Source: Lewinellaceae bacterium (GTDB lineage Bacteria; Bacteroidota; Bacteroidia; Chitinophagales; Saprospiraceae). Taken from it: a stretch of DNA of 64,000 nt. Below the pieces are notes generated by a model. That model was given only the letters and a program-made list of their open reading frames with translations. It was not told the origin of the DNA and searched no databases. This document shows, piece after piece, positions 47,131 to 62,974 of the stretch. A program made the position numbers and the translations under genes. Positions within the stretch are counted from its first letter, which is position 1. Each line of letters opens with the position of its first letter. Location: contig JAHELJ010000004.1 of NCBI GenBank assembly GCA_024644235.1, positions 124,001 to 188,000 on the forward strand. Direction: 5' to 3'.

Positions 47131-47138
47131 TATCTTTG
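47131..47138 (+). promoter_or_regulatory. Bacteroidota -7 element (TATCTTTG) of rpsU
   Basis: An exact TAnnTTTG match 32 bases before the rpsU ATG. I see no convincing -33 partner at the normal distance. Confidence 0.5.
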
Positions 47139-48411: not shown

Positions 48412-48729
48412 ATGAACATTAGAATGGAATCGGTACATTTTACAGCAGATCAGAAGCTGCAGGACTACATTGACAAAAAGCTGAACAAGCTAGATTCATT
48501 CTACAACCGCATTATCGATGCTCACGTGATCCTGAAACTGGAGAATACCGGACAAATTCGAGACAAGATTGTCGAAGTCAAGTTGAAGATTCCCAAGGAT
48601 CTGTTAGTCGCTAAAGTATCGAAGAAGACCTTCGAAGCAGCCGTTGATGAGTCTGTAAAATTGCTGCGGAGGCAACTAATTCGACATAAGGAACGCCAGC
48701 GATCATTTTCCGATCCACTGGAACCTTAA
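48412..48729 (+). CDS. hpf: Ribosome hibernation-promoting factor (short form)
   Basis: A 105-residue protein of the HPF/RaiA family: MNIRMESVHFTADQKLQDYIDKKLNKLDSFYNRI (in part), ILKLEN, VEVKLKIPKDLLVAKVSKKTFEAAVDES, LLRRQLIRHKERQR. It binds the small-subunit decoding region and stalls ribosomes in slow growth. The C-terminal dimerisation domain of long HPF is absent, so this is the short type. It is 30 bases after xerC. Confidence 0.95.
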   Translation: MNIRMESVHFTADQKLQDYIDKKLNKLDSFYNRIIDAHVILKLENTGQIRDKIVEVKLKIPKDLLVAKVSKKTFEAAVDESVKLLRRQLIRHKERQRSFSDPLEP

Positions 48730-49036
48730 AAACAGCTGTAACTTCCTCGTTTTACGGCCTTTTCAAAATGAAAGGATAGGTTTCAATTTTGTGAAAAAAG
48801 TGATATCTTTGCCATCGCTTTGGGAAAAAGTTCTTTTGAGCGCGCTACTTTGTCTCCTCTTTTGTAGACAATAGGCGAGAAAACTGAGAGCTATTTTGTT
48901 GATTTTGAGGGGGAAAACACATATGTGAATCTATGATGTACATTGGCCGCTCTCGTGTGCTTTGAAATAAGTGGATTTTCAAGAATGTAAACGAGAAAAC
49001 GAATTATCCTTTGTAGAGATAATCTCACGATCTAAG
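48730..49036 (+). other. 307-base leader before the tRNA-tuf cluster
   Basis: No gene is visible. It holds a promoter (48781-48811), a hairpin at about 48850-48871 (TTGTCT and AGACAA), and a second small hairpin at about 49005-49025 (ATTATC and GATAAT). A short motif CGAGAAAAC occurs twice (near 48874 and 48991). The long leader may carry signals for anti-termination or tRNA processing, but I cannot show this. Confidence 0.45.
48781..48811 (+). promoter_or_regulatory. Bacteroidota promoter of the tRNA-tuf operon
   Basis: TTTC (48781-48784, one base from the TTTG consensus), 19 bases, then TATCTTTG (48804-48811), an exact TAnnTTTG. The spacing is that of the phylum's housekeeping sigma factor. 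Confidence 0.6.
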
Positions 49037-49109
49037 GCCGATGTAGCTCAGCTGGTAGAGCAGCTGATTTGTAATCAGCTGGTCGGGGGTTCGAGTCCCT
49101 CCATCGGCT
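49037..49109 (+). tRNA. tRNA-Thr (anticodon TGT)
   Basis: 73 bases with acceptor arms GCCGATG and CATCGGC, D-arm AGCTCAGCTGGTAGAGC, anticodon loop TTTGTAA and TTCGAGTC in the T-arm. First of four tRNAs before tuf. CCA is not encoded (TCTCATT follows). Confidence 0.96.
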
Positions 49110-49163
49110 CTCATTGATTAGACGAAGAGCTCAGTTGCCTCGTTTTGAAGTGATCTCAATATT

Positions 49164-49246
49164 GGGGGCGCGCCGGAGTTGGAGAGCCGGGGCAGACTGT
49201 AAATCTGTTGTCTACGACTGAATAGGTTCGAATCCTATCGCCCCCA
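49164..49246 (+). tRNA. tRNA-Tyr (anticodon GTA)
   Basis: 83 bases with a long variable arm, acceptor arms GGGGGCG and CGCCCCC, anticodon loop CTGTAAA and T-arm GGTTCGAATCC. The length and extra arm are typical of bacterial tRNA-Tyr. Confidence 0.95.
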
Positions 49247-49252
49247 CGAGAT

Positions 49253-49501
49253 GGGTTTGGATGTGAGTGTGAGTGTGGGTGTGAATGGGTTCATTGAATC
49301 GAAGAATCACTCTCCACACATACCCACACTCACACAACACACCCAACTTGCGGGCGTAGCTCAGTTGGTAGAGCATCAGCCTTCCAAGCTGAGGGTCGTG
49401 GGTTCGAGTCTCATCGCCCGCTCCATTTTTTTAGAAAGTACATTGGCTAGACACATGATGAATTTTGGAAACTCACACGCACACTCACACACACCCAACT
49501 T

Positions 49502-49503
<2 letters not shown>
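49253..49503 (+). repeat. GT/AC-rich inverted and direct repeats flanking tRNA-Gly
   Basis: A GT-rich tract (49253-49290) contains GTGTGAGTGTGGGT (49267-49280), whose exact complement ACCCACACTCACAC lies at 49322-49335, forming a 14-bp stem with a 41-base loop before tRNA-Gly. The AC tract with CCCAACTTGC (49325-49351) recurs nearly intact at 49480-49503, just before the second tRNA-Thr; the last two bases of each copy belong to the tRNA. tRNA-Gly itself lies within this span. Confidence 0.85.
49350..49425 (+). tRNA. tRNA-Gly (anticodon TCC)
   Basis: Acceptor arms GCGGGCG and CGCCCGC, D-arm AGCTCAGTTGGTAGAGC, anticodon loop CTTCCAA, T-arm GGTTCGAGTC. The CCA end is encoded (49423-49425), unlike in the neighbouring tRNAs. 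Confidence 0.96.
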
Positions 49504-49573
<70 letters not shown>

Positions 49574-49626
49574 CAAACTTGATTTTGAAACAGTTAAAAT
49601 TTTAGAAAACGTAAAATAACTATCCG

Positions 49627-50823
49627 ATGGCAAAGGAAACTTTTGAAAGGACTAAACCACATTTGAACGTGGGTACTATTGGACACGTAGACCATGGCAA
49701 GACAACATTGACAGCTGCCATCACCTATGTGTTGTCGCAAGATGGTCTTGCGAAGAGCATGGATTATGATTCAATTGATGCTGCTCCAGAAGAGAAAGAA
49801 CGTGGTATTACGATCAATACGGCACACGTGGAGTATGAAACATCTAATCGTCACTATGCTCATGTGGATTGTCCTGGCCATGCTGACTATGTGAAGAACA
49901 TGGTCACGGGTGCCGCTCAGATGGATGGAGCTATCCTTGTGGTAGCAGCCACGGATGGTCCTATGCCTCAAACCCGCGAACATATACTGCTGGCGAGGCA
50001 GGTTGGTGTTCCCAAGATTGTGGTATTTATGAATAAAGTGGATTTGGTTGACGATGAGGAGATGCTTGAATTGGTAGAGATGGAAGTTCGTGAACTGCTG
50101 GATCAATATGAGTTTGATGGTGACAATGCCATTATCGTGAAAGGTTCAGCGCTGAAAGCTCTGGAAGGAGATGCCGACGCTCAGAAAGCGATCCGAGAAC
50201 TTATGGAGGCTGTTGATACCGAAATTCCGGAGCCAGTACGATTGATCGATCAACCTTTCCTGATGCCAATTGAAGATGTCTTTTCGATTACCGGCCGGGG
50301 AACAGTTGCAACAGGTCGAATCGAGCGTGGTGTTATTGAAACGAGTAACAGTGTAGAGATCGTCGGTATGATGAGGGAAGGCGAAAAGCCAATGACATCA
50401 ACAGTAACTGGTGTGGAGATGTTCCGTAAAATTCTGTCTCGAGGTGAAGCAGGAGATAATGCTGGACTACTTTTACGAGGTATTGACAAAGACGATATTA
50501 AAAGAGGACAAGTGATTTGTGCTCCAGGTTCTGTCAATCCGCATAAAAAATTCAAGTGCGAGGTATATGTACTAAGTAAAGATGAGGGAGGAAGACATAC
50601 TCCTTTCTTCAATGGATATCGTCCACAGTTTTACTTCCGTACCACTGATGTGACCGGCGATGTGACCTTGCCAAGCGGAGTTGAGATGGTGATGCCTGGT
50701 GATAATGTGACTGTTGAAGTATCATTGATCAACTCAATAGCTATGGAGAAAGGTTTGCGCTTTGCGATCAGAGAAGGTGGTAGAACAGTTGGCGCTGGTC
50801 AGGTTACGGAAATAATTGAATAG
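49627..50823 (+). CDS. tuf: Elongation factor Tu
   Basis: A 398-residue GTPase that delivers aminoacyl-tRNA to the ribosome. All G motifs are intact: [10 protein letters not shown] (residues 19-28), the switch I region [21 protein letters not shown], and NKVD at about 136-139. Domains 2 and 3 ([42 protein letters not shown]) are complete. It is the last gene of the tRNA-tuf unit and is followed by a strong terminator. Confidence 0.99.
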
Positions 50824-50848
50824 AAATCTGAACAATATCAGAGATATA

Positions 50849-50887
50849 TTAAGCACCCTCAATGGAGGGTGCTTAATTCCTTTTTTA
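50849..50887 (+). terminator. Strong factor-independent terminator after tuf
   Basis: A perfect 12-bp stem, TTAAGCACCCTC (50849-50860) and GAGGGTGCTTAA (50865-50876), with an AATG loop and a TTCCTTTTTT tail. It ends 24 bases before tRNA-Trp. Confidence 0.92.
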
Positions 50888-50910
50888 GAGAGAAAGATCA
50901 TGAGCCATCC

Positions 50911-50983
50911 ACGGGCATAGCTCAATTGGTAGAGCGACGGTCTCCAAAACCGTAGGCTGGGGGTTCGAGTCCTCCTGCCCGTG
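50911..50983 (+). tRNA. tRNA-Trp (anticodon CCA)
   Basis: 73 bases with acceptor arms ACGGGCA and TGCCCGT, anticodon stem ACGGT and ACCGT around CTCCAAA, T-arm GGTTCGAGTCC and discriminator G, as expected for tRNA-Trp. It sits directly before secE, as in many bacteria. Confidence 0.96.
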
Positions 50984-51040
50984 CTAGGAGACTTAATAGA
51001 AGTCGACATTTTATTTGAAAGACTTAGAGGAAATCAATTC

Positions 51041-51229
51041 ATGGAGAAATTAGTCCAAAGTATCAGGGAAAGTTATAACGAGCTGATCAACAAAGTAAGT
51101 TGGCCGAGTTGGCCAAATTTGCAGCAAAGTACTATCCTGGTGCTTGTTGCCTCTTTGATTATTGCTTTGTTGGTCTTCATAATGGACTCGCTGTCAAAGC
51201 AGATAGTGGATATTCTCTACAATATCTAA
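51041..51229 (+). CDS. secE: Preprotein translocase subunit SecE
   Basis: A 62-residue membrane protein with one transmembrane helix. I start at the ATG at 51041 (MEKLVQSIRESYNELINKVSWPSW, in part); the longer frame would begin inside the tRNA-Trp gene. The conserved amphipathic helix, the NKVSWPSW turn and the single C-terminal helix (STILVLVASLIIALLVFIMD) are those of bacterial SecE. It stabilises SecY in the inner membrane. Confidence 0.95.
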   Translation: MEKLVQSIRESYNELINKVSWPSWPNLQQSTILVLVASLIIALLVFIMDSLSKQIVDILYNI

Positions 51230-51238
51230 TTGGGAGCG

Positions 51239-51787
51239 ATGAGTGAAGAAAGCAAATGGTATTCCCTGCGGGTGATTAGCGGCAAAGAGCGCAAACTGAA
51301 AGAACGGATCGAGCTGGAGGTAAAGCGCTCAGGCTGGAGTGATGTGATCACTCAGGTGATTGTACCCACAGAAAAGGTTTATAAGATAAGGAATGGGAAG
51401 AAGGTGATTCAAGAGCGTAACATTCTGCCTGGATATATCCTGGTGGAGGCTGAACCGTCGAGATTCACCGGAGAAATGATTCAGACCATTTCCAACATGA
51501 CAAATGTGATCAACTTTCTTGGAGGGAGCAATCCCATTCCGATGAAGGACACAGAAGCAAACCGGATGCTTGGTAAGGCAGATGAATCCCAGGAGGGAGA
51601 AGAGATCATGATTGAACCATTCTTGGTGGGAGAAACGATCAAGATTATCGATGGGCCTTTCAACAATTTTGTGGGGGACATCAGAGAGGTGAATGAAGAG
51701 AAAAAGAAGTTGAAGGTGATTGTAAAAATATTTGGTAGAGGGACCGAAGTGGAGCTGAACTTCATGCAAGTGGAGAAGCAGACCTAA
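51239..51787 (+). CDS. nusG: Transcription termination/antitermination factor NusG
   Basis: A 182-residue protein. I use the ATG at 51239 (MSEESKWYSLRVISGKERKL); a TTG at 51230 would add three residues. The NGN domain (WYSLRVISGKERKLKERIE, PGYILVEAE) contacts RNA polymerase, and the C-terminal KOW domain (GETIKIIDGPFNNFVGDIREVN, in part) binds S10 or Rho. It is 9 bases after secE. The extra acidic segment between the domains (ADESQEGEEIMI) is common in this phylum. Confidence 0.97.
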   Translation: MSEESKWYSLRVISGKERKLKERIELEVKRSGWSDVITQVIVPTEKVYKIRNGKKVIQERNILPGYILVEAEPSRFTGEMIQTISNMTNVINFLGGSNPIPMKDTEANRMLGKADESQEGEEIMIEPFLVGETIKIIDGPFNNFVGDIREVNEEKKKLKVIVKIFGRGTEVELNFMQVEKQT

Positions 51788-51821
51788 GTCATTGGGGACT
51801 CACTTATAAAGAACTAGAAAC

Positions 51822-52280
51822 ATGGCGAAAGAAATTGAAGGCTTTCTGAAATTACAGGTTAGAGGAGGACAGGCCAACCCTGCTCCACCCGTAGGACCAG
51901 CCTTAGGATCAAAAGGAGTCAATATCATGGAATTCTGTAAGCGCTTCAATGCGCGTACACAGGATTCACAGGGTAAGATTATTCCAGTTGTAATTACCGT
52001 CTATCGTGATAAGTCCTTCGACTTCATAATAAAGACTCCTCCAGCGGCTGTGCAACTTCTTGAGGCAGCGAAATTAAAGAAAGGCTCTCAGGAATCGAAC
52101 CGCATTAAGGTAGGATCCGTCACCTGGGATCAGGTGAAAGAGATAGCTGAGGCAAAGATGGTGGACCTGAATGCGTTCAAGGTTGAGTCGGCAATGAAAA
52201 TGGTGGCCGGTACTGCCAGAAGCATGGGGATCACCATTTCAGGGACTGCACCTTTTGCTCAAAGCAGCGAAGAAGAATAA
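51822..52280 (+). CDS. rplK: 50S ribosomal protein L11
   Basis: A 152-residue uL11 protein: [24 protein letters not shown] (in part), [31 protein letters not shown], and the RNA-binding C-terminal domain with [14 protein letters not shown] and GTARSMGI. It is a few residues longer than the E. coli protein because of an acidic tail (SSEEE). It supports the GTPase-associated center. It is 34 bases after nusG. Confidence 0.98.
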
Positions 52281-52337
52281 CAATTTTTAGAAGGGAGTCG
52301 CAGATAAGAAGCGACGCTAATAACCTCGTAAACATTC

Positions 52338-53027
52338 ATGGGAAAATTATCAAAGAAAAGAGCGGCCGCAGAGAAACTGGTGGATCCAAATAACTTGTAT
52401 TCACTGGATGAAGCTATGGTCAAGGTAAAAGAAGCAAATACTGCGTCATTTGATGCTTCGGTAGATGTCCATGTCCGGCTGGGAGTGGATCCCAGAAAGG
52501 CGGATCAGGCGATCCGTGGCACGGTGACGCTTCCTAATGGTACAGGAAAGACGAAAAGAGTATTGGTTTTCTGCCCACCGGAGAAGGAAGCTGAGGCCCT
52601 TGAAGCTGGAGCTGATTTTGCCGGACTGGATGAGTTGGTAACGAAGATTCAAGGGGGATGGACAGATTTTGATGTCGTAGTTGCCGCTCCTCAGGTGATG
52701 GCCACCGTGGGAAAAATCGGAAGGATACTTGGGCCGAGAGGTTTAATGCCGAATCCAAAGACAGGTACGGTCACACCAGACATCGCCAGCGCAGTAGCAG
52801 ATGTAAAAGGAGGAAAGATTTCGTTTAGAGTAGACAAGTTTGGCATTATTCATTCTTCGATTGGCAGGGTGTCATTTAGTGCTGAAAAACTGACTGAAAA
52901 TGCGACAGAGCTGTTGGAAACACTGGTACGAATGAAACCAGCCTCGGCCAAAGGCATCTATATGAAATCTATAACGGTAGCCAGTACAATGAGTCCGGGG
53001 ATAAAAATCAACCCTAAGTTCAATTAG
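52338..53027 (+). CDS. rplA: 50S ribosomal protein L1
   Basis: A 229-residue uL1 protein that matches the family along its length, with [23 protein letters not shown] (in part), [18 protein letters not shown] and [19 protein letters not shown]. In many bacteria L1 represses its own message; I do not see a clear L1-box in the 57 bases before the gene, and this was not tested by folding. Confidence 0.98.
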
Positions 53028-53062
53028 AAAATGGTATCCACTTCCTAATAAAAAGAATCACA

Positions 53063-53590
53063 ATGACTAGAGCAGAGAAAGCGGCAGCCGTAAAAGTGCT
53101 GAAGAAGAAATTCAAGAATAACACGTTCTTTTACCTGACTGATTCGTCAGCACTTTCTGTGGAGCAGGTAAATAAGCTTCGCGGTTTGTGTTATGAAAAA
53201 GGTGTTGAGATGAAGGTCATCAAAAACACATTAGCGGTCAAGGCTCTCGAGACATTTGCAGAAGATCGTGGATTCGATAAGCTGTATGACTCTTTGAAAG
53301 GTCCCACGGCAATCATGTTCTCTGATAACGCCAGTACTCCAGCCAAGGTCATTAAGGAGTTTAGGAAAGACCACGATAGGCCAGTGCTCAAAGCAGCTTA
53401 CATCGATACAGATGTATTTGTTGGTGATAATCATGTAGAAGGCCTGGCTGCTCTCAAGTCCAAAGAGGAATTAGTCGCTGACGTGATTCTGTTGCTTGAG
53501 TCTCCGATAAAGAGCTTGATAAGGGCTTTGGATTCGGGTGCTACTATTTCAGGATTACTAACTGCCCTGGAAGAGCGGGGCGAATCATAA
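53063..53590 (+). CDS. rplJ: 50S ribosomal protein L10
   Basis: A 175-residue uL10 protein: MTRAEKAAAVKVLKKKFKNN, FYLTDSSALSVEQVNKLR, VIKNTLAVKAL, GPTAIMFSDN, and a C-terminal helix that binds L7/L12 dimers (SLIRALDSGATISGLLTALEER, in part). The 35-base gap before it is too short for the classical L10 leader. It is followed 59 bases later by rplL. Confidence 0.98.
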   Translation: MTRAEKAAAVKVLKKKFKNNTFFYLTDSSALSVEQVNKLRGLCYEKGVEMKVIKNTLAVKALETFAEDRGFDKLYDSLKGPTAIMFSDNASTPAKVIKEFRKDHDRPVLKAAYIDTDVFVGDNHVEGLAALKSKEELVADVILLLESPIKSLIRALDSGATISGLLTALEERGES

Positions 53591-53649
53591 AATTGGCTTC
53601 CAAGTTTTAACGCATATATATTCATCGTAAAAAATTAAATTAATCAAAC

Positions 53650-54030
53650 ATGGCAGATTTAAGTGCGATAGCAGAACAATTGGTGAACCTCACTGTTAAA
53701 GAGGTCAGCGAGTTGAAAGACCTACTGAAAGATCAGTATGGCATCGAACCTGCAGCCGCGGCTGTAGCCGTTGCAGCCGGACCAGCCGCTGGAGATGGAG
53801 AAGGTGGTGCTGCTGAAAAGAGTGAATTTGATGTAGTACTGAACTCAGCTGGTGCAGCAAAATTGAAAGTTGTCAAGGAAGTAAAAACGTTATTGGGAGT
53901 AGGTTTGAAAGATGCAAAGGATTTGGTAGACAATGCTCCATCAACAATCAAAGAAGGTGTTCCTAAGGAAGAAGCTGAAAGTATTAAGGCAGCCCTGGAG
54001 GCAGCTGGTGCGGAAGTAGAACTGAAGTAA
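53650..54030 (+). CDS. rplL: 50S ribosomal protein L7/L12
   Basis: A 126-residue protein with the N-terminal dimerisation helices ([21 protein letters not shown], in part), an Ala-rich hinge ([19 protein letters not shown]) and the C-terminal factor-binding domain ([41 protein letters not shown]). It recruits translation GTPases. A 154-base gap with two hairpins separates it from rpoB. Confidence 0.98.
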
Positions 54031-54085
54031 TTTATTACAAAGTTCTGCCGACAATCATCAGTGATATCCACGCATATAAGCGATC

Positions 54086-54120
54086 TAGGCTTAGCTCGAT
54101 CATCGAACGAGTTAGGCCTA
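54086..54120 (+). promoter_or_regulatory. Hairpin 1 of the rplL-rpoB gap
   Basis: Arms TAGGCTTAGCTCG (54086-54098) and CGAGTTAGGCCTA (54108-54120) pair over 13 bp with two G-U pairs and a 9-base loop. No U-run follows, so it is not a normal terminator; an attenuator or processing site is possible. Confidence 0.7.
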
Positions 54121-54136
54121 TCGTCGTTATTATTAA

Positions 54137-54159
54137 TGCCCTGTCTACAGAGCAGGGTA
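54137..54159 (+). promoter_or_regulatory. Hairpin 2 of the rplL-rpoB gap
   Basis: Arms TGCCCTG (54137-54143) and CAGGGTA (54153-54159) pair over 7 bp (one G-U) with a 9-base loop, 25 bases before the rpoB ATG. Confidence 0.6.
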
Positions 54160-54184
54160 TTCATCAAATAAATCGAATAATCTA

Positions 54185-57100
54185 ATGGCGAAGAAAGCTG
54201 TTGCCAAACCCAGTAAAAACGGTCGAATCAATTTTGGTAAGATTAACCTGGCTTCCGAATATCCGGACCTGTTGGAGATTCAAATGAAGTCCTTTCAGGA
54301 ATTCTTCCAATTGGAGACCACGCCTGAGAACAGGAGCAATGAAGGCCTGTACCGCGTATTTCAGGAAAACTTTCCGATCACCGATGCCCGAAACATCTTC
54401 GTTCTGGAATTCCTGGATTACTTCATTGACCCTCCGCGCTACACCATTGAAGAATGCATGCAGCGTGGACTCACCTATAGCGTGCCACTGAAAGCGAAGC
54501 TGAGGTTGTCCTGTAATGACGAAGAGCACGTCGACTTTCAGACGATAGTGCAGGATGTTTTCTTAGGCAATATCCCGTATATGACTCCAAAGGGAACTTT
54601 CGTGATCAATGGTGCTGAACGGGTAATAGTATCTCAACTGCACCGTTCTCCAGGTGTTTTCTTCAGCCAGAGTTTTCATCCGAATGGAACAAAGATCTAC
54701 TCCGCAAGAGTGATCCCTTTCAAGGGTGCCTGGATGGAATTTGCTACCGACATCAATCAGGTCATGTATGCCTATATTGACAGAAAGAAGAAGTTTCCGG
54801 TGACTACTCTTCTTAGGGCCATCGGTTACGACTCAGACAAGCAAATTCTTGATCTTTTTGACCTGGCAGAAGAAGTAAAAACCGATAAGCGCAAACTGAA
54901 GAGCCGTATTGGCAGAAAGCTCGCAGCCAGGGTCCTGAGAAAGTGGGTAGAGGATTTCGTCGATGAAGATACCGGAGAGGTAGTTTCAATTGAGAGAAAC
55001 GAAATTATACTTGAACGTGATGTTGTCCTTGATGAGGAAAACATCGAGCAGATTCTGGAAGCTGGAGTGGAGACGATCATACTTCAGAAAGAGGACATCG
55101 ATGAGGACTACAGTATCATCTATAATACGCTGCAGAAGGACGTTTCGAGTTCAGAGCTGGAAGCGGTACAACACATTTACCGTCAGTTGAGAGGAACTGA
55201 TCCCCCAGATGAGGAAACGGCGCGAGGGATTATTGATAAACTATTCTTTTCAGACAAGAGGTATAACCTGGGAGAAGTGGGTCGGTACAAGATCAATCGA
55301 AAGCTCAATCTGGAGATCGAGCCCACTACACTTATTCTGACCAAGGAAGATATAATCGAGATTGTTAAGTATCTGGTGAGCCTGACCAATCAAAAGGCAG
55401 AACTTGATGACATCGATCATCTAAGCAATAGAAGAGTGCGAACCGTGGGAGAACAACTCTATGCTCAATTTGGTGTGGGGCTGGCAAGGATGGCTCGAAC
55501 GATTCGGGAACGTATGAATGTGCGGGACAATGAAGTCTTTACACCGATTGATCTGATCAATGCGAGAACCTTGTCATCGGTTATCAATTCATTTTTTGGA
55601 ACCAGTCAGCTTTCGCAGTTTCTCGATCAAACAAATCCGCTCTCGGAGATCACGCATAAGCGACGAATCTCAGCTTTGGGTCCGGGAGGACTATCCAGGG
55701 AAAGAGCAGGTTTTGAGGTTCGGGATGTTCACTACTCACACTATGGACGCCTGTGTACCATTGAAACTCCTGAGGGGCCGAACATTGGATTGATCTCAAC
55801 ACTTTGCGTTCACGCCAAGGTGAACAAGATGGGATTTCTAGAGACTCCTTACCGCCGTGTGAATAAGGGTAAGCTTGACCTTAAAGGGAACGCAGAATAT
55901 CTCTCGGCAGAAGGTGAAGACTTTAAGAGAATAGCCCAGGCAAATTCGCAGATTGATGCGAAAGGTGCATTTGTATCTGATAGGATAAAATGCAGGGAGC
56001 ACGGAGATTTTCCCGTGCTTACACCGTCTGAGGTCGAATATATGGATGTTGCACCTAACCAGATTGTTGGTGTGTCAGCGTCCTTGATTCCATTCCTGGA
56101 AAACGATGATGCCAACCGGGCCTTGATGGGATCAAACATGCAGCGACAGGCGGTTCCGCTACTGCGACCATCAGCTCCTGTTGTTGGAACTGGTTTGGAA
56201 GCAAAGGTGGCAGAAGATTCTCGAATGCTAATCAATGCGGAGGGCAACGGTGTAGTAGAATATGTAGATGCTGAAAGCATCGTGATCCGATATGACCGGA
56301 GTGAAGAGGACCAACTTGTGTCATTTGAGGACAATCTTAAGACCTATCACCTGACCAAGTTTATGCGGACCAATCAAGGTACCTGCATAAACCTTAAGCC
56401 AATTGTAAAGAAGGGGCAACGAGTGAAGAAAGGTATGATCCTCTGTGATGGATATGCTACCGAGAAGGGTGAACTCGCTCTTGGGCAGAACCTCCGAGTT
56501 GCTTTCATGCCTTGGAAAGGATACAATTTTGAGGATGCCATCGTGATTTCGGAGAGGGTGGTACGGGATGATACTTTCACTTCAATCCATATTGAGCATT
56601 TTGAAATGGATGTGAGAGATACCAAGTTGGGTGAGGAAGAACTGACCAATGACATTCCTAATGTTAGCGAAGATGCAACGAAGGATCTTGATGAGAATGG
56701 GATCATTCGGGTAGGTGCATGGGTGAACGAAGGTGACATTTTGATCGGAAAGATTACTCCAAAGGGGGAGTCTGATCCCACACCTGAAGAGAAGTTGTTG
56801 CGTGCAATATTTGGAGATAAAGCCGGAGATGTCAAAGACGCTTCGATGAAGGCTCCTCCATCGACAAATGGAATCGTGATCGATAAGCAGCTTTTTGCCA
56901 GGGCAAAGAAGGACAAGACGAAGAAAGCTCAGGAGAAAACGCTTCTAACTAAGTTGGACGATCAGCATGCCATTGCTCTGAATGAGCTCAAGACACTCCT
57001 TGTCGACAAGCTGAATACCCTTGTGAAAGGAGAGACCAGTGAAGGTATAAAGAGTATCTACAATGAGGAGATGGTCAAGAAGGGTATAAAATTGACGAAG

Positions 57101-58006
57101 AACACCTTGAAGAACATTGACTATACGGTGGTAGATTATGCCAATTGGACGAAATCTAAGAAAACAAATAGCTTGATCGCCCGATTGCTTCACAACTACA
57201 GCATTAAAGTAAACGAGGAGATTGGCCGCTACAAACGTGAGAAGTTCAATATCTCAATCGGAGATGAATTGCCAGCCGGAGTCTTGAAGCTAGCTAAAGT
57301 TTATCTCGCTAAAAAACGGAAGTTGAAGGTGGGTGATAAGCTAGCAGGACGACATGGGAATAAAGGTATTGTCTCCAAAATCGTACGTGCCGAGGACATG
57401 CCTTTCTTGGAAGATGGCACTCCTGTCGACATCGTCTTGAATCCATTGGGTGTTCCCTCTCGGATGAACCTGGGGCAGATCTTCGAAACAGTACTAGGTT
57501 GGGCTGGAGAGAAACTCGACGTTAAATTTTCTACTCCGATTTTTGACGGGGCCAGCTTGGACGAAATCGAAGAATTTATCGTACAGGCAGGGTTGCCAGC
57601 CTTTGGACAGACATATCTGTTCGATGGAGGCACTGGAGACCGTTTCCACCAACAGGCAACTGTTGGTGTGATCTACATGCTGAAACTATCGCACATGGTT
57701 GATGACAAGATGCATGCCAGATCTATTGGTCCATACTCATTGATTACCCAGCAACCACTGGGAGGTAAAGCGCAGTTCGGTGGTCAACGTTTTGGGGAGA
57801 TGGAGGTATGGGCATTGGAGGCATTTGGAGCTTCGACGATACTGCAGGAATTGCTGACAATTAAGTCAGATGACATCATCGGAAGAGCAAAAACCTATGA
57901 GGCTATCGTCAAAGGAGATAACCTTCCCGAGCCCAGTATTCCCGAGTCATTCAATGTGCTAATACATGAATTACGTGGATTAGCATTGGATGTAAAATTT
58001 GATTAG
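54185..58006 (+). CDS. rpoB: RNA polymerase beta subunit
   Basis: A 1273-residue beta subunit, full length. The rifampicin-pocket region is nearly identical to E. coli ([23 protein letters not shown], in part, then [20 protein letters not shown]). The residues that most often mutate to resistance (Asp, His and Ser of that pocket) are the sensitive types. Other landmarks: [43 protein letters not shown] long flexible Lys-rich segment near residue 910 ([14 protein letters not shown]) is a lineage feature. It is 24 bases upstream of rpoC. Confidence 0.99.
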
Positions 58007-58030
58007 TAAACCACTTTCAACTCAACAGAT

Positions 58031-61000
58031 ATGCCTTTTAAAAAGAGTTTTAATAAACAGAAAGCAGATTTTGAAAGTATAACCATCAGCTTGTGCTCTC
58101 CCGATGATATTCTCGAGAGGTCTTACGGCGAAGTACTCAAACCCGAAACGATCAACTATCGATCGTACAAGCCAGAGCGCGATGGACTTTTCTGCGAGCG
58201 GATCTTTGGGCCCGTGAAGGATTACGAGTGCTACTGCGGAAAATACAAGAGGATCCGATATAAAGGAATCGTATGTGATCGCTGTGGTGTGGAAGTGACA
58301 GAGAAGAAGGTGCGAAGAGAGCGAATGGGCCACATAAAACTAGTGGTACCTGTTGTGCATATTTGGTTCTTTAAGTCGCTGCCCAATAAAATCGGATATC
58401 TGCTGGGACTCTCCTCAAAGAAGCTAGAGTCCATCATCTACTACGAGAGATATGTAGTTGTACATCCGGGAATCAAAGAGGCTGAAGGAGTGGCAAAGAT
58501 GGATCTGCTAACAGAGGAGGAGTACTTTGAGATATTGGAATCACTGCCACGAGAGAACCAGATGTTGGATAATGAGGATCCGAACAAGTTTGTAGCCCTG
58601 ATGGGAGCTGAAGCAGTTCGGGAACTTCTGATGAGACTTGATCTGGATGATTTATCATACGCTTTGCGGCATCAGGCTGCCACGGAGACCTCTCAACAAC
58701 GTAAATCAGAGGCTCTGAAGAGATTGAGAGTGGTTGAGGCATTCCGAGATGGATTGACCCGGATTGAAAACCGCCCTGAGTGGGCCATTATCCAATATTT
58801 GCCGGTGGTGCCACCAGAATTGAGACCATTGGTACCGCTTGATGGTGGAAGGTTTGCCAGCTCTGATCTTAATGATCTGTATCGCCGCGTGATCATCCGA
58901 AATAATCGATTGAAAAGACTGCTGGAGATCAAAGCACCGGAAGTGATTTTGAGAAATGAAAAGCGAATGCTTCAGGAAGCTGTAGATTCACTTTTCGATA
59001 ACTCCAGGAAATCAAATGCGGTGAAGGCAGAAGGGGGACGACCTCTCAAGTCACTAAGTGACATTCTGAAAGGAAAGCAAGGACGGTTTCGACAAAACTT
59101 GTTGGGTAAGCGGGTCGATTATAGTGGTCGATCAGTGATCGTGGTTGGTCCGACTTTGAAATTACATGAGTGTGGAATACCTAAAGGAATGGCGGCAGAG
59201 CTGTTTAAGCCCTTCATCATCCGGAAATTGATTGAAAGAGGCATTGTAAAGACAGTGAAGTCGGCCAAAAAACTCGTGGATCGAAAGGATAGTGTGATTT
59301 GGGAAATACTGGAAAACATATTGAAAGGACATCCAGTCTTACTGAACCGGGCTCCGACACTCCACCGGTTATCAATTCAGGCTTTTCAGCCGAAATTGGT
59401 TGAGGGCAAAGCCATTCAGCTGCATCCCTTGGTTTGTGGTGCCTTCAATGCCGACTTTGACGGGGATCAAATGGCGGTACATGTTCCGCTTAGTCAGGCA
59501 GCTATTCTGGAGGCACAGCTGTTGATGTTGTCTTCTCATAACATGCTAAATCCACAAGACGGCTCACCCATCACCTTGCCCTCGCAAGATATGGTGTTGG
59601 GCTTATACTATCTGACCAAAGAAAGGACCAGGCCTGAAAGTAAGTCAAAGAATGGCGTGCCACAGGCCTACTACTCGACAGAGGAAGTTCGAATAGCTTT
59701 CAATGAAGGAAGTCTTGATTTGCATGAGCCGATCAAAGTAAGAGTGTTGGTCGAGAATGATGAGGGCGAATTATCTCATCAGGTGGTGGGGACTACGGTC
59801 GGCAGGGTAATCTTCAATGAAGTCGTGCCAGCCTCAGTGCCCTATATCAATCAACTCCTTACCAAGCGTAACTTGAAGAGTGTAATCAGTGATATTATCA
59901 TCCGCACCAATTTCGAGGTCACAGCTGCATTCTTGGATGCCATCAAAGACCTCGGGTTTTACTGGGCATTCAAAGGTGGTTTGTCCTTCAATCTGGGAGA
60001 TCTAATCACGCCAACAGTTAAGTTAGATATACTTGATGAAGCCCAATCTGAGGTGGATGAAGTGTGGGATAACTATAATATGGGTCTGATCACGAATAAC
60101 GAGCGTTACAATCAGATCATCGACAAGTGGACATATGCCGATAACACTATTACAGATAATCTCTTGAAAGAATTATCTGAACACAAAGAAGGTTTTAATT
60201 CTGTTTACATGATGCTTCATTCCGGAGCACGGGGTTCAAAGCAACAGATCAAGCAGTTGTGCGGCCTTCGGGGTTTGATGGCAAAACCACGGAAATCGGG
60301 AGATACCGGTGGAGCGATTATTGAGAATCCGATCCTCTCCAATTTCCTCGATGGATTGTCAGTTCTGGAATACTTTATTTCTACGCACGGTGCCCGCAAG
60401 GGTCTCGCAGATACGGCTTTGAAGACTGCAGATGCCGGGTACCTGACCAGGAGATTGGTGGATGTAGCACAAGATGTGGTGATCATGGAAGATGACTGTG
60501 GAACGTTGAGAGGAATTGACACCACCGCGCTAAAGGACAATGAGAAAGTGATTCGAAGCCTGGCAAAGAGGATCGTGGGAAGGTACACCCTGCATACTTT
60601 GTACCATCCTGAGACGGACGAATTAATTCTCGAAGCCGACCAGTACATAAGTGAGAAAAAGGCTAATGAGATAGAAAAGGCTGGTATTGAGATGGTAACC
60701 ATCAGATCGGTTCTCACCTGCGAAACAAAGCGTGGCGTATGCCGTAGATGTTATGGTAAGAACTTAGCCACCGGACGTATTGCGGAGAATGGAGATGCTG
60801 TAGGAATTATTGCAGCCCAATCAATCGGAGAGCCCGGTACCCAGCTTACCCTGCGTACTTTCCACGTTGGTGGTATCGCTTCGGTAGCTAAAGCTGAGTC
60901 AGAAATAGTTTCTAAGTATGAGGGTACTCTGGAGTTTGATGGAGTGAAGACGACAAAGCATTCCGAGAATGGCCTGACAAAAGATATTGTGATTTCCCGT

Positions 61001-62329
61001 ACCGGCGAAATTCGAATTCTTGATTCCAAATCGGGTAAGTTATTTACATCGGTCCATGTGCCTTATGGAGCAAGCTTATTCGTAAAAAACAAACAGAAAA
61101 TCAAACGGGGGGATTCTATTTGTGAATGGGATCCATTCAACGCTGTGATTATTTCCGAACACAGCGGTATTGTGGAATTCGAGTCAATAGAAGAAGGGGA
61201 AACTTTCCGGATTGAGCGTGACGATCAGACTGGCTATGCTGAAAAAGTCATCATTGAATCTAAAAAGAAGCGAAAGATCCCTACCGTCAGGTTGTTGCGG
61301 AAAGATGGGCGTACTTTACGAACCTATAATCTTCCAGTGGGAGCATATCTGTCTGTTGAAGAAGGCGATAAACTAGAGTCGGGTCAGATCATCGCGAAGA
61401 TCCCAAGGAATCTTGGAAAGATTTCTGACATCACCGGTGGATTGCCTAGGGTTACGGAACTGTTTGAAGCCCGAAATCCATCGAATCCGGCCGTCGTTGC
61501 TGAGATAGACGGTATCGTATCGTTTGGTAAGATCAAGCGTGGTAACCGTGAAGTGATTATCACAGCGAAAGATGAGCAGGTGAGAAAATACCTGATTGGA
61601 CTTTCAAAACATATCCTGGTTCAGGAAGGTGACTTTGTCAGGGCTGGAACCCAACTTTCGGACGGAGCGACGGCACCAAAAGACATCCTGAATATTAAGG
61701 GACCATTTGCCGTTCAATCGTATTTGGTAAATGGAGTACAAGAAGTCTATCGGGCACAGGGTATCACAATCAATGACAAGCATATTGAGGTGATCGTTCG
61801 TCAGATGATGCGCCGGGTGATCATTGAGGATCCGGGAGATACCAGCTTCTTGGAAGGCGAGGCAGTCGAGAAATACGACTTCTTGGAGCAGAACGATTGG
61901 ATTTACGATAAGAAGTTTGTTTCCGATGCAGGAGATTCCAACAAGTTGAAACCTGGCCAGCTTGTGACATTGAGACAGTTGAGAGAGGAAAATTCTTACC
62001 TCAAGCGAAATGATCTCAAAACGGTCGAACACCGCGATGCAGTACCAGCGACTTCAAGCCCATTGTTGCAAGGTATCACCAAGTCTTCACTGGGGACCCA
62101 CAGCTGGATTTCGGCTGCGTCCTTCCAGGAGACGACCAAGGTGCTTAGCACAGCAGCTATCGGAGCCAAAAGGGATTATCTGAGCGGATTGAAAGAAAAT
62201 GTCATTGTAGGAAAGAAAATACCAGCCGGAACAGGATTGAGACAGTTCAAAGAACTGCTCGTCACGGGCGAATCTTTGACCGGTGGTAGGGAAGAGGAAG
62301 AAGAGGCTTTGGTAGACCAACTACAATAG
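58031..62329 (+). CDS. rpoC: RNA polymerase beta' subunit
   Basis: A 1432-residue beta' subunit. The N-terminal zinc ribbon is present ([19 protein letters not shown]), the active-site magnesium motif is NADFDGD with Asp475, Asp477 and Asp479, and the second zinc site is [13 protein letters not shown] near residue 900. The bridge-helix/trigger-loop region is normal ([19 protein letters not shown]). The C-terminal end ([21 protein letters not shown], in part) is complete. It is the last gene of the secE-rpoC unit and is followed by a UUCG-loop terminator. Confidence 0.99.
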
Positions 62330-62357
62330 AAAGACCTAATACAAAGAATTTTTTTGA

Positions 62358-62385
62358 GGCTGCACTTTCGAGTGCAGCCTTTTTT
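62358..62385 (+). terminator. Terminator of the rpoBC operon with a UUCG tetraloop
   Basis: GGCTGCACT (62358-62366), loop TTCG, AGTGCAGCC (62371-62379), then a run of six T bases. Its tail touches the last codon of the convergent ribE. There is no T-run on the minus side, so it serves rpoC only. Confidence 0.93.
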
Positions 62386-62974
62386 ATTTATACCTAGCGA
62401 TTTGTCGCAAAAGATATTTTGCCACGATGTCAAATTCAACGTTGACCTGAGCGCCAGGTGTTATTTGGGATAGGTTAGTGTGATCCCAGGTATAGGGAAT
62501 GATAGCCACTTGAAAATGATCGTCGGTCGGATCAATAACCGTCAGGCTGACACCATTCAAACAGACTGAACCTTTGTCTACCAAGAGCGGACTAAACTTC
62601 GTATCAATTGCAAATTGCAGTACAATACTTCCATTTACATCCTTTACAGCTGTACAAGTAGCTTTGCCATCGACGTGACCTTGTACAATATGTCCGTCAA
62701 GCCTGTCTCCCGCTATCATAGCTCTTTCCAGATTTACACTCTGACCGGGAACCCATAGATCTATGGTGCTTCGCGACAAGGTTTCATCAACTGCTACTAC
62801 AGTGTGAGTCGAGCCATCATGAGCCACCACCGTGAGGCAAATGCCATCATGAGATAGACTCTGATCAACCCTCAGATCCTTGGAAATTGTCGAAGCGACT
62901 TTGATTCGTTTGTTTGCACCTTCTCTAACAACTGACTCTACATGCCCCAGGCATTCGATTATTCCTGTGAACAT
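62384..62974 (-). CDS. ribE: Riboflavin synthase alpha subunit
   Basis: A 196-residue protein with two lumazine-binding repeats (residues 1 to about 95 and 96 to about 190). The MFTGIIECLGHV start, DGICLTVV in the first repeat, GHIVQGHVDGK at the junction, and SVCLNGVSLTVID in the second repeat are typical. It converts two molecules of dimethyl-ribityl-lumazine to riboflavin in the cytosol. It begins 7 bases after the end of the secreted protein gene on the same strand. I see no FMN riboswitch in that short gap. Confidence 0.97.
   Translation of the reverse strand: MFTGIIECLGHVESVVREGANKRIKVASTISKDLRVDQSLSHDGICLTVVAHDGSTHTVVAVDETLSRSTIDLWVPGQSVNLERAMIAGDRLDGHIVQGHVDGKATCTAVKDVNGSIVLQFAIDTKFSPLLVDKGSVCLNGVSLTVIDPTDDHFQVAIIPYTWDHTNLSQITPGAQVNVEFDIVAKYLLRQIARYK

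Follow-up and report, generated by a model that had tools for sequence, protein, structure and literature searches.

A hairpin of conserved sequence behind tuf in Saprospiraceae hints at a so far undescribed control point ahead of tRNA-Trp, secE, nusG and rpoBC

Background

How are tRNA-Trp, secE, nusG, the rpl genes and rpoBC transcribed in a Lewinellaceae bacterium (Bacteroidota; Saprospiraceae), if a terminator-like hairpin follows the gene in front of them and no promoter of the usual type is seen in between? The question arose from a first-pass annotation of the 64,000-nucleotide stretch of DNA analysed here (the window). It described a strong terminator behind tuf, with a T-run 24 bases before tRNA-Trp and no TAnnTTTG in these bases or in late tuf, and proposed that the downstream genes may depend on read-through of the stem, which would make it an attenuator, or on another type of promoter. 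TAnnTTTG / TTTG is the Bacteroidota promoter consensus given in excerpts of two papers (PMC9723704, PMC7366714). The locus comprises the following features:

48781..48811, + strand: predicted promoter of the operon, TTTC-N19-TATCTTTG, ahead of the tRNA genes (motif scan)
49037..49574, + strand: tRNA-Thr(TGT), tRNA-Tyr, tRNA-Gly and tRNA-Thr(GGT) (tRNA calling)
49627..50823, + strand: tuf, coding for EF-Tu (ORF; relatives share the gene order)
50827..50842, + strand: small 5-bp hairpin between the tuf stop and element 1 (folding)
50848..50877, + strand: element 1, the conserved tuf 3' hairpin, core TTAAGCACC...GGTGCTTAA (folding, covariance model)
50881..50886, + strand: T-run of element 1, six T, with TTAATTCC between it and the G-C stem
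50911..50984, + strand: tRNA-Trp (tRNA calling and Rfam)
51041..51229, + strand: ORF that we take to be secE by its place and likeness
51239..51787, + strand: ORF, presumably nusG
51822..54030, + strand: ORFs, presumably rplK, rplA, rplJ and rplL (tblastn queries against relatives)
54087..54119, + strand: element 2, AGGCTTAG...TTAGGCCT, a conserved hairpin between rplL and rpoB
54185..62329, + strand: ORFs that we take to be rpoB and rpoC
62356..62381, + strand: intrinsic terminator of ordinary type 3' of rpoC, serving as control

Results

Gene order around tuf

The tuf-trnW place is present once in the 249 contigs of the window's own genome. Of 57 loci in which NusG was matched, the window's among them, 54 have tuf, tRNA-Trp, secE and nusG one after the other in this sequence; two of the three exceptions lie at contig ends (L031, L061), and in the third, from another family, no tuf was found upstream (L060). 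A larger set of 161 loci was also examined. Without the five that were dropped before counting (L132 lacks tRNA-Trp; L031, L060, L061 and L101 lack the tuf end), this set comprises 137 same-family loci and 19 from other families of the order. The window and 20 loci of 16-17 kb, selected for having the hairpin, make up the long-locus set (n = 21), in all of which the four tRNAs precede tuf. The same gene order is known from gammaproteobacteria, where a tRNA-tufB-tRNA-Trp-secE-nusG-rplKA cluster is termed highly conserved; unlike the locus described here, no conserved hairpin is mentioned for it in the excerpt of the source (PMC8765398).

Four loci of Lewinella type (L239, L265, L271, L275) carry partial tRNA-Trp-like copies between tuf and the tRNA-Trp called by ARAGORN. 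Further, the nusG-rplK gap of six loci (L187, L192, L193, L198, L202, L203) contains GCTTCCCT, apparently within a hairpin; we take this sequence to resemble an L1-type ribosomal protein site. The corresponding gap of the window, about 35 nt long, is without it.

The tuf 3' hairpin is conserved in sequence

Element 1 consists of the stem ATTAAGCACCCTC-AATG-GAGGGTGCTTAAT, with 13 pairs (6 G-C) and a loop of 4, and the tail TCCTTTTTTA. Positions 50820-50910 fold at -27.8 kcal/mol, compared with -14.5 +/- 3.0 in shuffles (z -4.5), and the stable G-C-rich stem and small loop are those of an intrinsic terminator. The arrangement noticed at first pass is thus confirmed: the stem occupies 50848-50877, the T's 50881-50886, and 24 bases separate their end from tRNA-Trp at 50911.

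The core AATTAAGCAYC...GGTGCTTAATT was found, with compensatory changes, in 90 of the 137 same-family loci, representing 64 genera. Loci were counted when their arms agreed with TTAAGCAYC and GGTGCTTAA in no fewer than 6 of 9 positions and formed at least 8 of 9 pairs. By the same criterion, 3 reversed gaps, 1-4 loci in ten shuffles and none of 21 rpoC 3' regions, whose terminator stems have no common core, were retrieved; in other families of the order it selects 2 of 19 loci. Directly behind the tuf stop, core loci have 20 nt of nearly random sequence (majority base 0.31-0.61); the hairpin lies 25-86 nt from this stop, and 6-242 nt (786 nt in L156) separate it from tRNA-Trp. Element 1 belongs to tuf, to which it is anchored, and not to trnW. 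Its loops and arm spacing vary among core loci.

The criterion leaves 47 of the 137 family loci without the core, one of which (L121) was found by the covariance model. Since the near relatives L064 and L065 (NusG 87%) carry other hairpins, the core sequence is not indispensable; the equally near L063 (NusG 88%) and L207 (90%) have it. Hairpins with AAGGAA...TTCCTT or close forms occur in the tuf-trnW gap of L017, L024, L084, L087 and L122, and those of L087 and L122 pass the core criterion too.

A covariance model trained on 36 loci was tried on 100 others, made up of 54 core loci kept out of the training and 46 non-core loci (all of the 47 except L166). At E<=0.1 it recovered 39 of the former, missing 15, and 1 of the latter (L121), and each of these 40 matches lies between tuf and trnW. 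Of 80 titled loci, many of which belong to the species of the relatives' genomes searched, 46 give a sense-strand match at E<=0.05, in 45 of these no more than 150 nt behind tuf; the locus of one sense-strand match, L229, has no tuf match. Covariation amounted to 46 cells, both partners having changed in 10 of 15 pairs, a level that 500 shuffles never reached; because training loci were chosen for the core, these pair counts lean to the core, which does not apply to the shuffle, reversed and rpoC controls. Among 810 core pairs, wobbles are distributed as 62 U-G versus 19 G-U, so that the 3' G is mostly kept, and this speaks for RNA.

Within its own genome, element 1 is the single place retrieved by exact pattern as well as by model, and a generic repeat is therefore rejected. 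Among 60 relatives, 20 have a match at E<=0.1, which coordinates put at the tuf-trnW place in 18. G035 and G054 match elsewhere and G009 has two further off-place matches; all four are other hairpins without the TTAAGC/GCTTAA core. At E<=0.01, 7 of 296 phylum genomes match, four being family genomes with the match at tuf; for the other three, no tuf lies within the 1.5-kb flanks. In Rfam 15, only the five tRNAs of the window exceed the gathering threshold, and the eight matches at 50780-50930 are sub-threshold (best STnc250, 21 bits versus a gathering score of 42). UUAAGC/GCUUAA resembles, as we presume, the terminal helix of 23S rRNA. Mimicry of it was dropped, not disproved: TTAAGCA and TGCTTAA are absent from rRNA stretches of G085 and G080, a weak test since these two fail the core criterion at tuf and 6 of 8 genomes (own included) gave no 23S match. 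The sequence conservation of element 1 is real.

A second hairpin precedes rpoB

Element 2 is followed in the window by ATCGTCGTTATT, without a T-run. In the form AGGCTTAG...CTAAGCCT it occurs in the rplL-rpoB gap of all 21 long loci (window, L187-L206), mostly followed by ATYGTCGTWTA or close forms; it was located by best match to its word, the weakest being L196 (11/16). Eight of its 12 pairs change on both sides. A model built from these 21 loci matches 37 of 60 relatives at E<=0.1, of which 31 belong to the same family, and by coordinates a match lies at most 4 kb downstream of nusG in 27 family genomes. Across the phylum it finds 33 of 296 genomes at E<=0.01, and 28 of the 33 belong to other families; none of the 16 out-of-family matches inspected lies at rplL-rpoB. 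Rfam 15 gave no match at 54031-54200. That a single operon contains two conserved hairpins suggests layered control.

Four genomes of one other family (L317-L320) have a short hairpin AAAGGTTTAAACC...TTTAAACCTATTGGCGTTT with a tail like that of element 2; matches to rplL and rpoB are absent from these loci.

Element 1 does not look like a typical terminator

The terminator had been called strong at first pass. This is true of the hairpin, and less clearly of the termination signal, since the T-run of the window is not flush with the G-C stem (GGTGC-TTAATTCC-TTTTTT). Intrinsic terminators at rpoC 3' ends share with element 1 the stem, the small loop and the U-rich tail. Most of them differ in having an uninterrupted U-tract: it directly follows the G-C stem in 17 of 21, with at least 6 T among the 8 nt that follow the last G-C pair (L191, L202, L203 and L205 fall short), whereas that of element 1 is broken (UUAAUUUUU). 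TTAA stands directly after the G-C part in 69 of 90 core loci, followed by the T-run; the longest T-run measures 3-5 in 80 of 90. The first 8 nt after GGTGC hold at least 6 T in 50 of 90 core loci and at least 5 T in 78. Judged by these features, element 1 does not look like a typical terminator, and its signal may be leaky or serve processing. A U-tract weaker than that of rpoC terminators is expected of a leaky signal; it would also agree with there being no termination.

The hairpin might instead be a processing structure or one protecting a 3' end. A single transcript would be cut at or near the stem in the manner of RNase III, leaving a stable tuf mRNA and a downstream mRNA headed by tRNA-Trp. 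The long, nearly perfect stems agree with this, as do the interrupted U-tract, often paired with A's, and element 2, which belongs to the same operon and is without a T-run. Going by their titles, studies in E. coli also treat attenuation or processing as controls of this string of genes: Barry 1980 reportedly deals with attenuation and processing of rplJL-rpoBC, and Downing 1990 is said to treat the secE-nusG operon. An excerpt of another paper counts tufB of E. coli among known RNase III sites (PMC5371410). Against processing, the U-rich tail is kept in the proportions given above. RNase III has little sequence preference, which leaves the fixed core unexplained. We consider a processing or protecting role, in place of termination, unlikely.

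Predicted promoters lie upstream of the tRNA cluster

On the + strand of 48700-62400, TAnnTTTG occurs only at 48804-48811 and, inside rplL, at 53900-53907. The window's tuf, tuf-trnW gap, tRNA-Trp and secE leader are without it on this strand, and its lack around the hairpin, noted at first pass, extends from 48811 to rplL. All 21 long loci have a perfect TAnnTTTG no further than 350 nt before their first tRNA (shuffle mean 5.8), and 20 of them have it together with a -33 element (shuffle mean 2.5), in a scan widened from 250 to 350 nt after the window's own leader had been read. The earlier scan, which covered 250 nt and kept a single best site per locus, found a perfect box in 17 of the 21 loci, and 7 of 21 beat 95% of their shuffles. 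The box is not enriched in the tuf-trnW gap (9 of 136 family loci versus 12.7 in shuffles; L156, with a gap of 863 nt, was left out), in the gap plus the last 150 nt of tuf (15 of 136 versus 21.0) or between trnW and secE (1 of 21 long loci versus 0.7). By these scans, tRNA-Trp-secE-nusG-rpl-rpoBC appear to have no promoter of the usual type of their own.

A candidate just before secE (TTTATTTG, 51010-51017) was rejected: it has one mismatch and a poor -33 partner and scores no better than shuffles, and a near-match box is absent from the same place among the relatives listed. Another perfect TATCTTTG box, at 47131-47138, stands about 30 nt before a 62-aa ORF that looks to us like rpsU.

It is improbable, in our estimate, that the hairpin fully terminates tuf and that tRNA-Trp and the following genes have a promoter of another type than TAnnTTTG, in the gap or the tuf end. 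Such an arrangement would suit the strong stem and the space of at least 23 nt left between 3' arm and tRNA-Trp in about three quarters of core loci. Cross-locus scans covered the TAnnTTTG/TTTG type and the sigma-70 scan the window alone; in the latter, two weak + strand sites that would agree with this arrangement (50789-50816 and 50821-50850, 9/12 each) are placed at the tuf end and before the stem, and sigma-70-like sites are in excess over the whole of 48700-62500 (31 versus 20.5 +/- 4.6 in shuffles). Against a separate promoter stand the TAnnTTTG counts just given and the lack of room: the 3' arm ends 6-12 nt before tRNA-Trp in 13 of 90 core loci, and among the 19 loci from the order's other families, 7 have a tuf-trnW gap of 9-22 nt, where terminator plus promoter would not fit. 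Boxes upstream of the tRNA-tuf genes in every long locus, no excess in the gaps and these short gaps together argue for one long transcription unit. Read-through from the tuf transcript, as proposed at first pass, is thus well supported.

Discussion

The reading that we regard as probable, though by no means firmly, is one promoter combined with a partial intrinsic terminator, an attenuator that would set the dose of secE-nusG-rplKAJL-rpoBC relative to tuf. Element 1 has the position of an attenuator, with the usual promoter upstream and none of TAnnTTTG type in the tuf-trnW gap, and an attenuator role is plausible. Transcription would start at the standard Bacteroidota promoter at 48781-48811, upstream of tRNA-Thr. 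RNA polymerase would transcribe the four tRNAs and tuf and meet the hairpin 25-86 nt after the tuf stop. Some polymerases would stop there, yielding abundant tuf mRNA with a structured 3' end; the remaining ones would read through into tRNA-Trp and the secE-nusG-rpl-rpo mRNA, needed in lower amount. The conserved core UUAAGCAYC/GGUGCUUAA with its AA-broken U-tract may tune or regulate termination, possibly via a protein of the transcription machinery. Termination, its partial nature and its tuning by the core are what we infer from sequence.

Neither the 3' arm with the 250 nt upstream nor the 5' arm with the 220 nt downstream pairs better than in shuffles (90 core loci), so an antiterminator of the RNA-switch kind was rejected. 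If the attenuator is regulated, the switch is thus not an obvious RNA one. Attenuators relying on protein alone need no antiterminator structure. Recognition of element 1 by a protein is speculative. A wider proposal, possible and in our view rather doubtful, is a regulatory RNA shared by much of the Saprospiraceae: a sequence-specific tuf 3' attenuator recognised by a product of its own operon that belongs to the transcription or translation machinery (NusG, RNA polymerase, EF-Tu or a ribosomal protein). Jointly with element 2, this attenuator would set the EF-Tu:ribosomal protein:RNA polymerase ratio from one promoter.

Two further explanations fare worse than those weighed above. Element 1 is very improbable as the terminus of a small RNA released from the tuf 3' UTR and acting in trans through its 3' arm: this arm is conserved, the element is single-copy in its own genome and its sub-threshold Rfam matches are mostly sRNA families (which may merely reflect a terminator-like end), but both arms are conserved and paired and the loops vary. 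Nor do we give much credit to a DNA palindrome bound by a DNA-binding protein. The near-palindromic core and model scores on both strands agree with it, but wobbles that keep the 3' G and variable arm spacing favour RNA, and the sense strand usually scores higher (L008 and L273 are exceptions).

As a proposed partial terminator, element 1 would be like the rimP-leader in kind, described in a paper whose authors we take to be Naville & Gautheret 2010. The rimP-leader is a short terminator-like hairpin with an unusually conserved stem, GGGc...gCCC, before rimP-nusA-infB; in its general form it has no visible antiterminator, and its authors argue that a protein of termination or antitermination recognises it (PMC2965389). 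Both elements thus combine a terminator-like hairpin, a conserved stem and no visible antiterminator with an elongation-factor operon downstream. Element 1 differs in sequence and gene context and is not a member of that class: nusG and rpoBC are among the genes downstream, and it sits between two operon parts, anchored to the upstream gene, while the rimP-leader is a 5' leader. Further, element 1 is known here from one bacterial family and the rimP-leader from the majority of species examined (PMC2965389).

In the open-licence literature, judged on titles and abstract openings, we recognised no description of element 1 or 2, and element 1 hints at a control point so far undescribed. Terminators usually keep their place, not their sequence, and the rpoC 3' ends examined likewise keep place but not stem sequence. 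A stem sequence held at the tuf junction in 90 loci of 64 genera therefore points to a specific recognition event, which would concern control of the gene expression machinery itself: NusG, ribosomal proteins and RNA polymerase.
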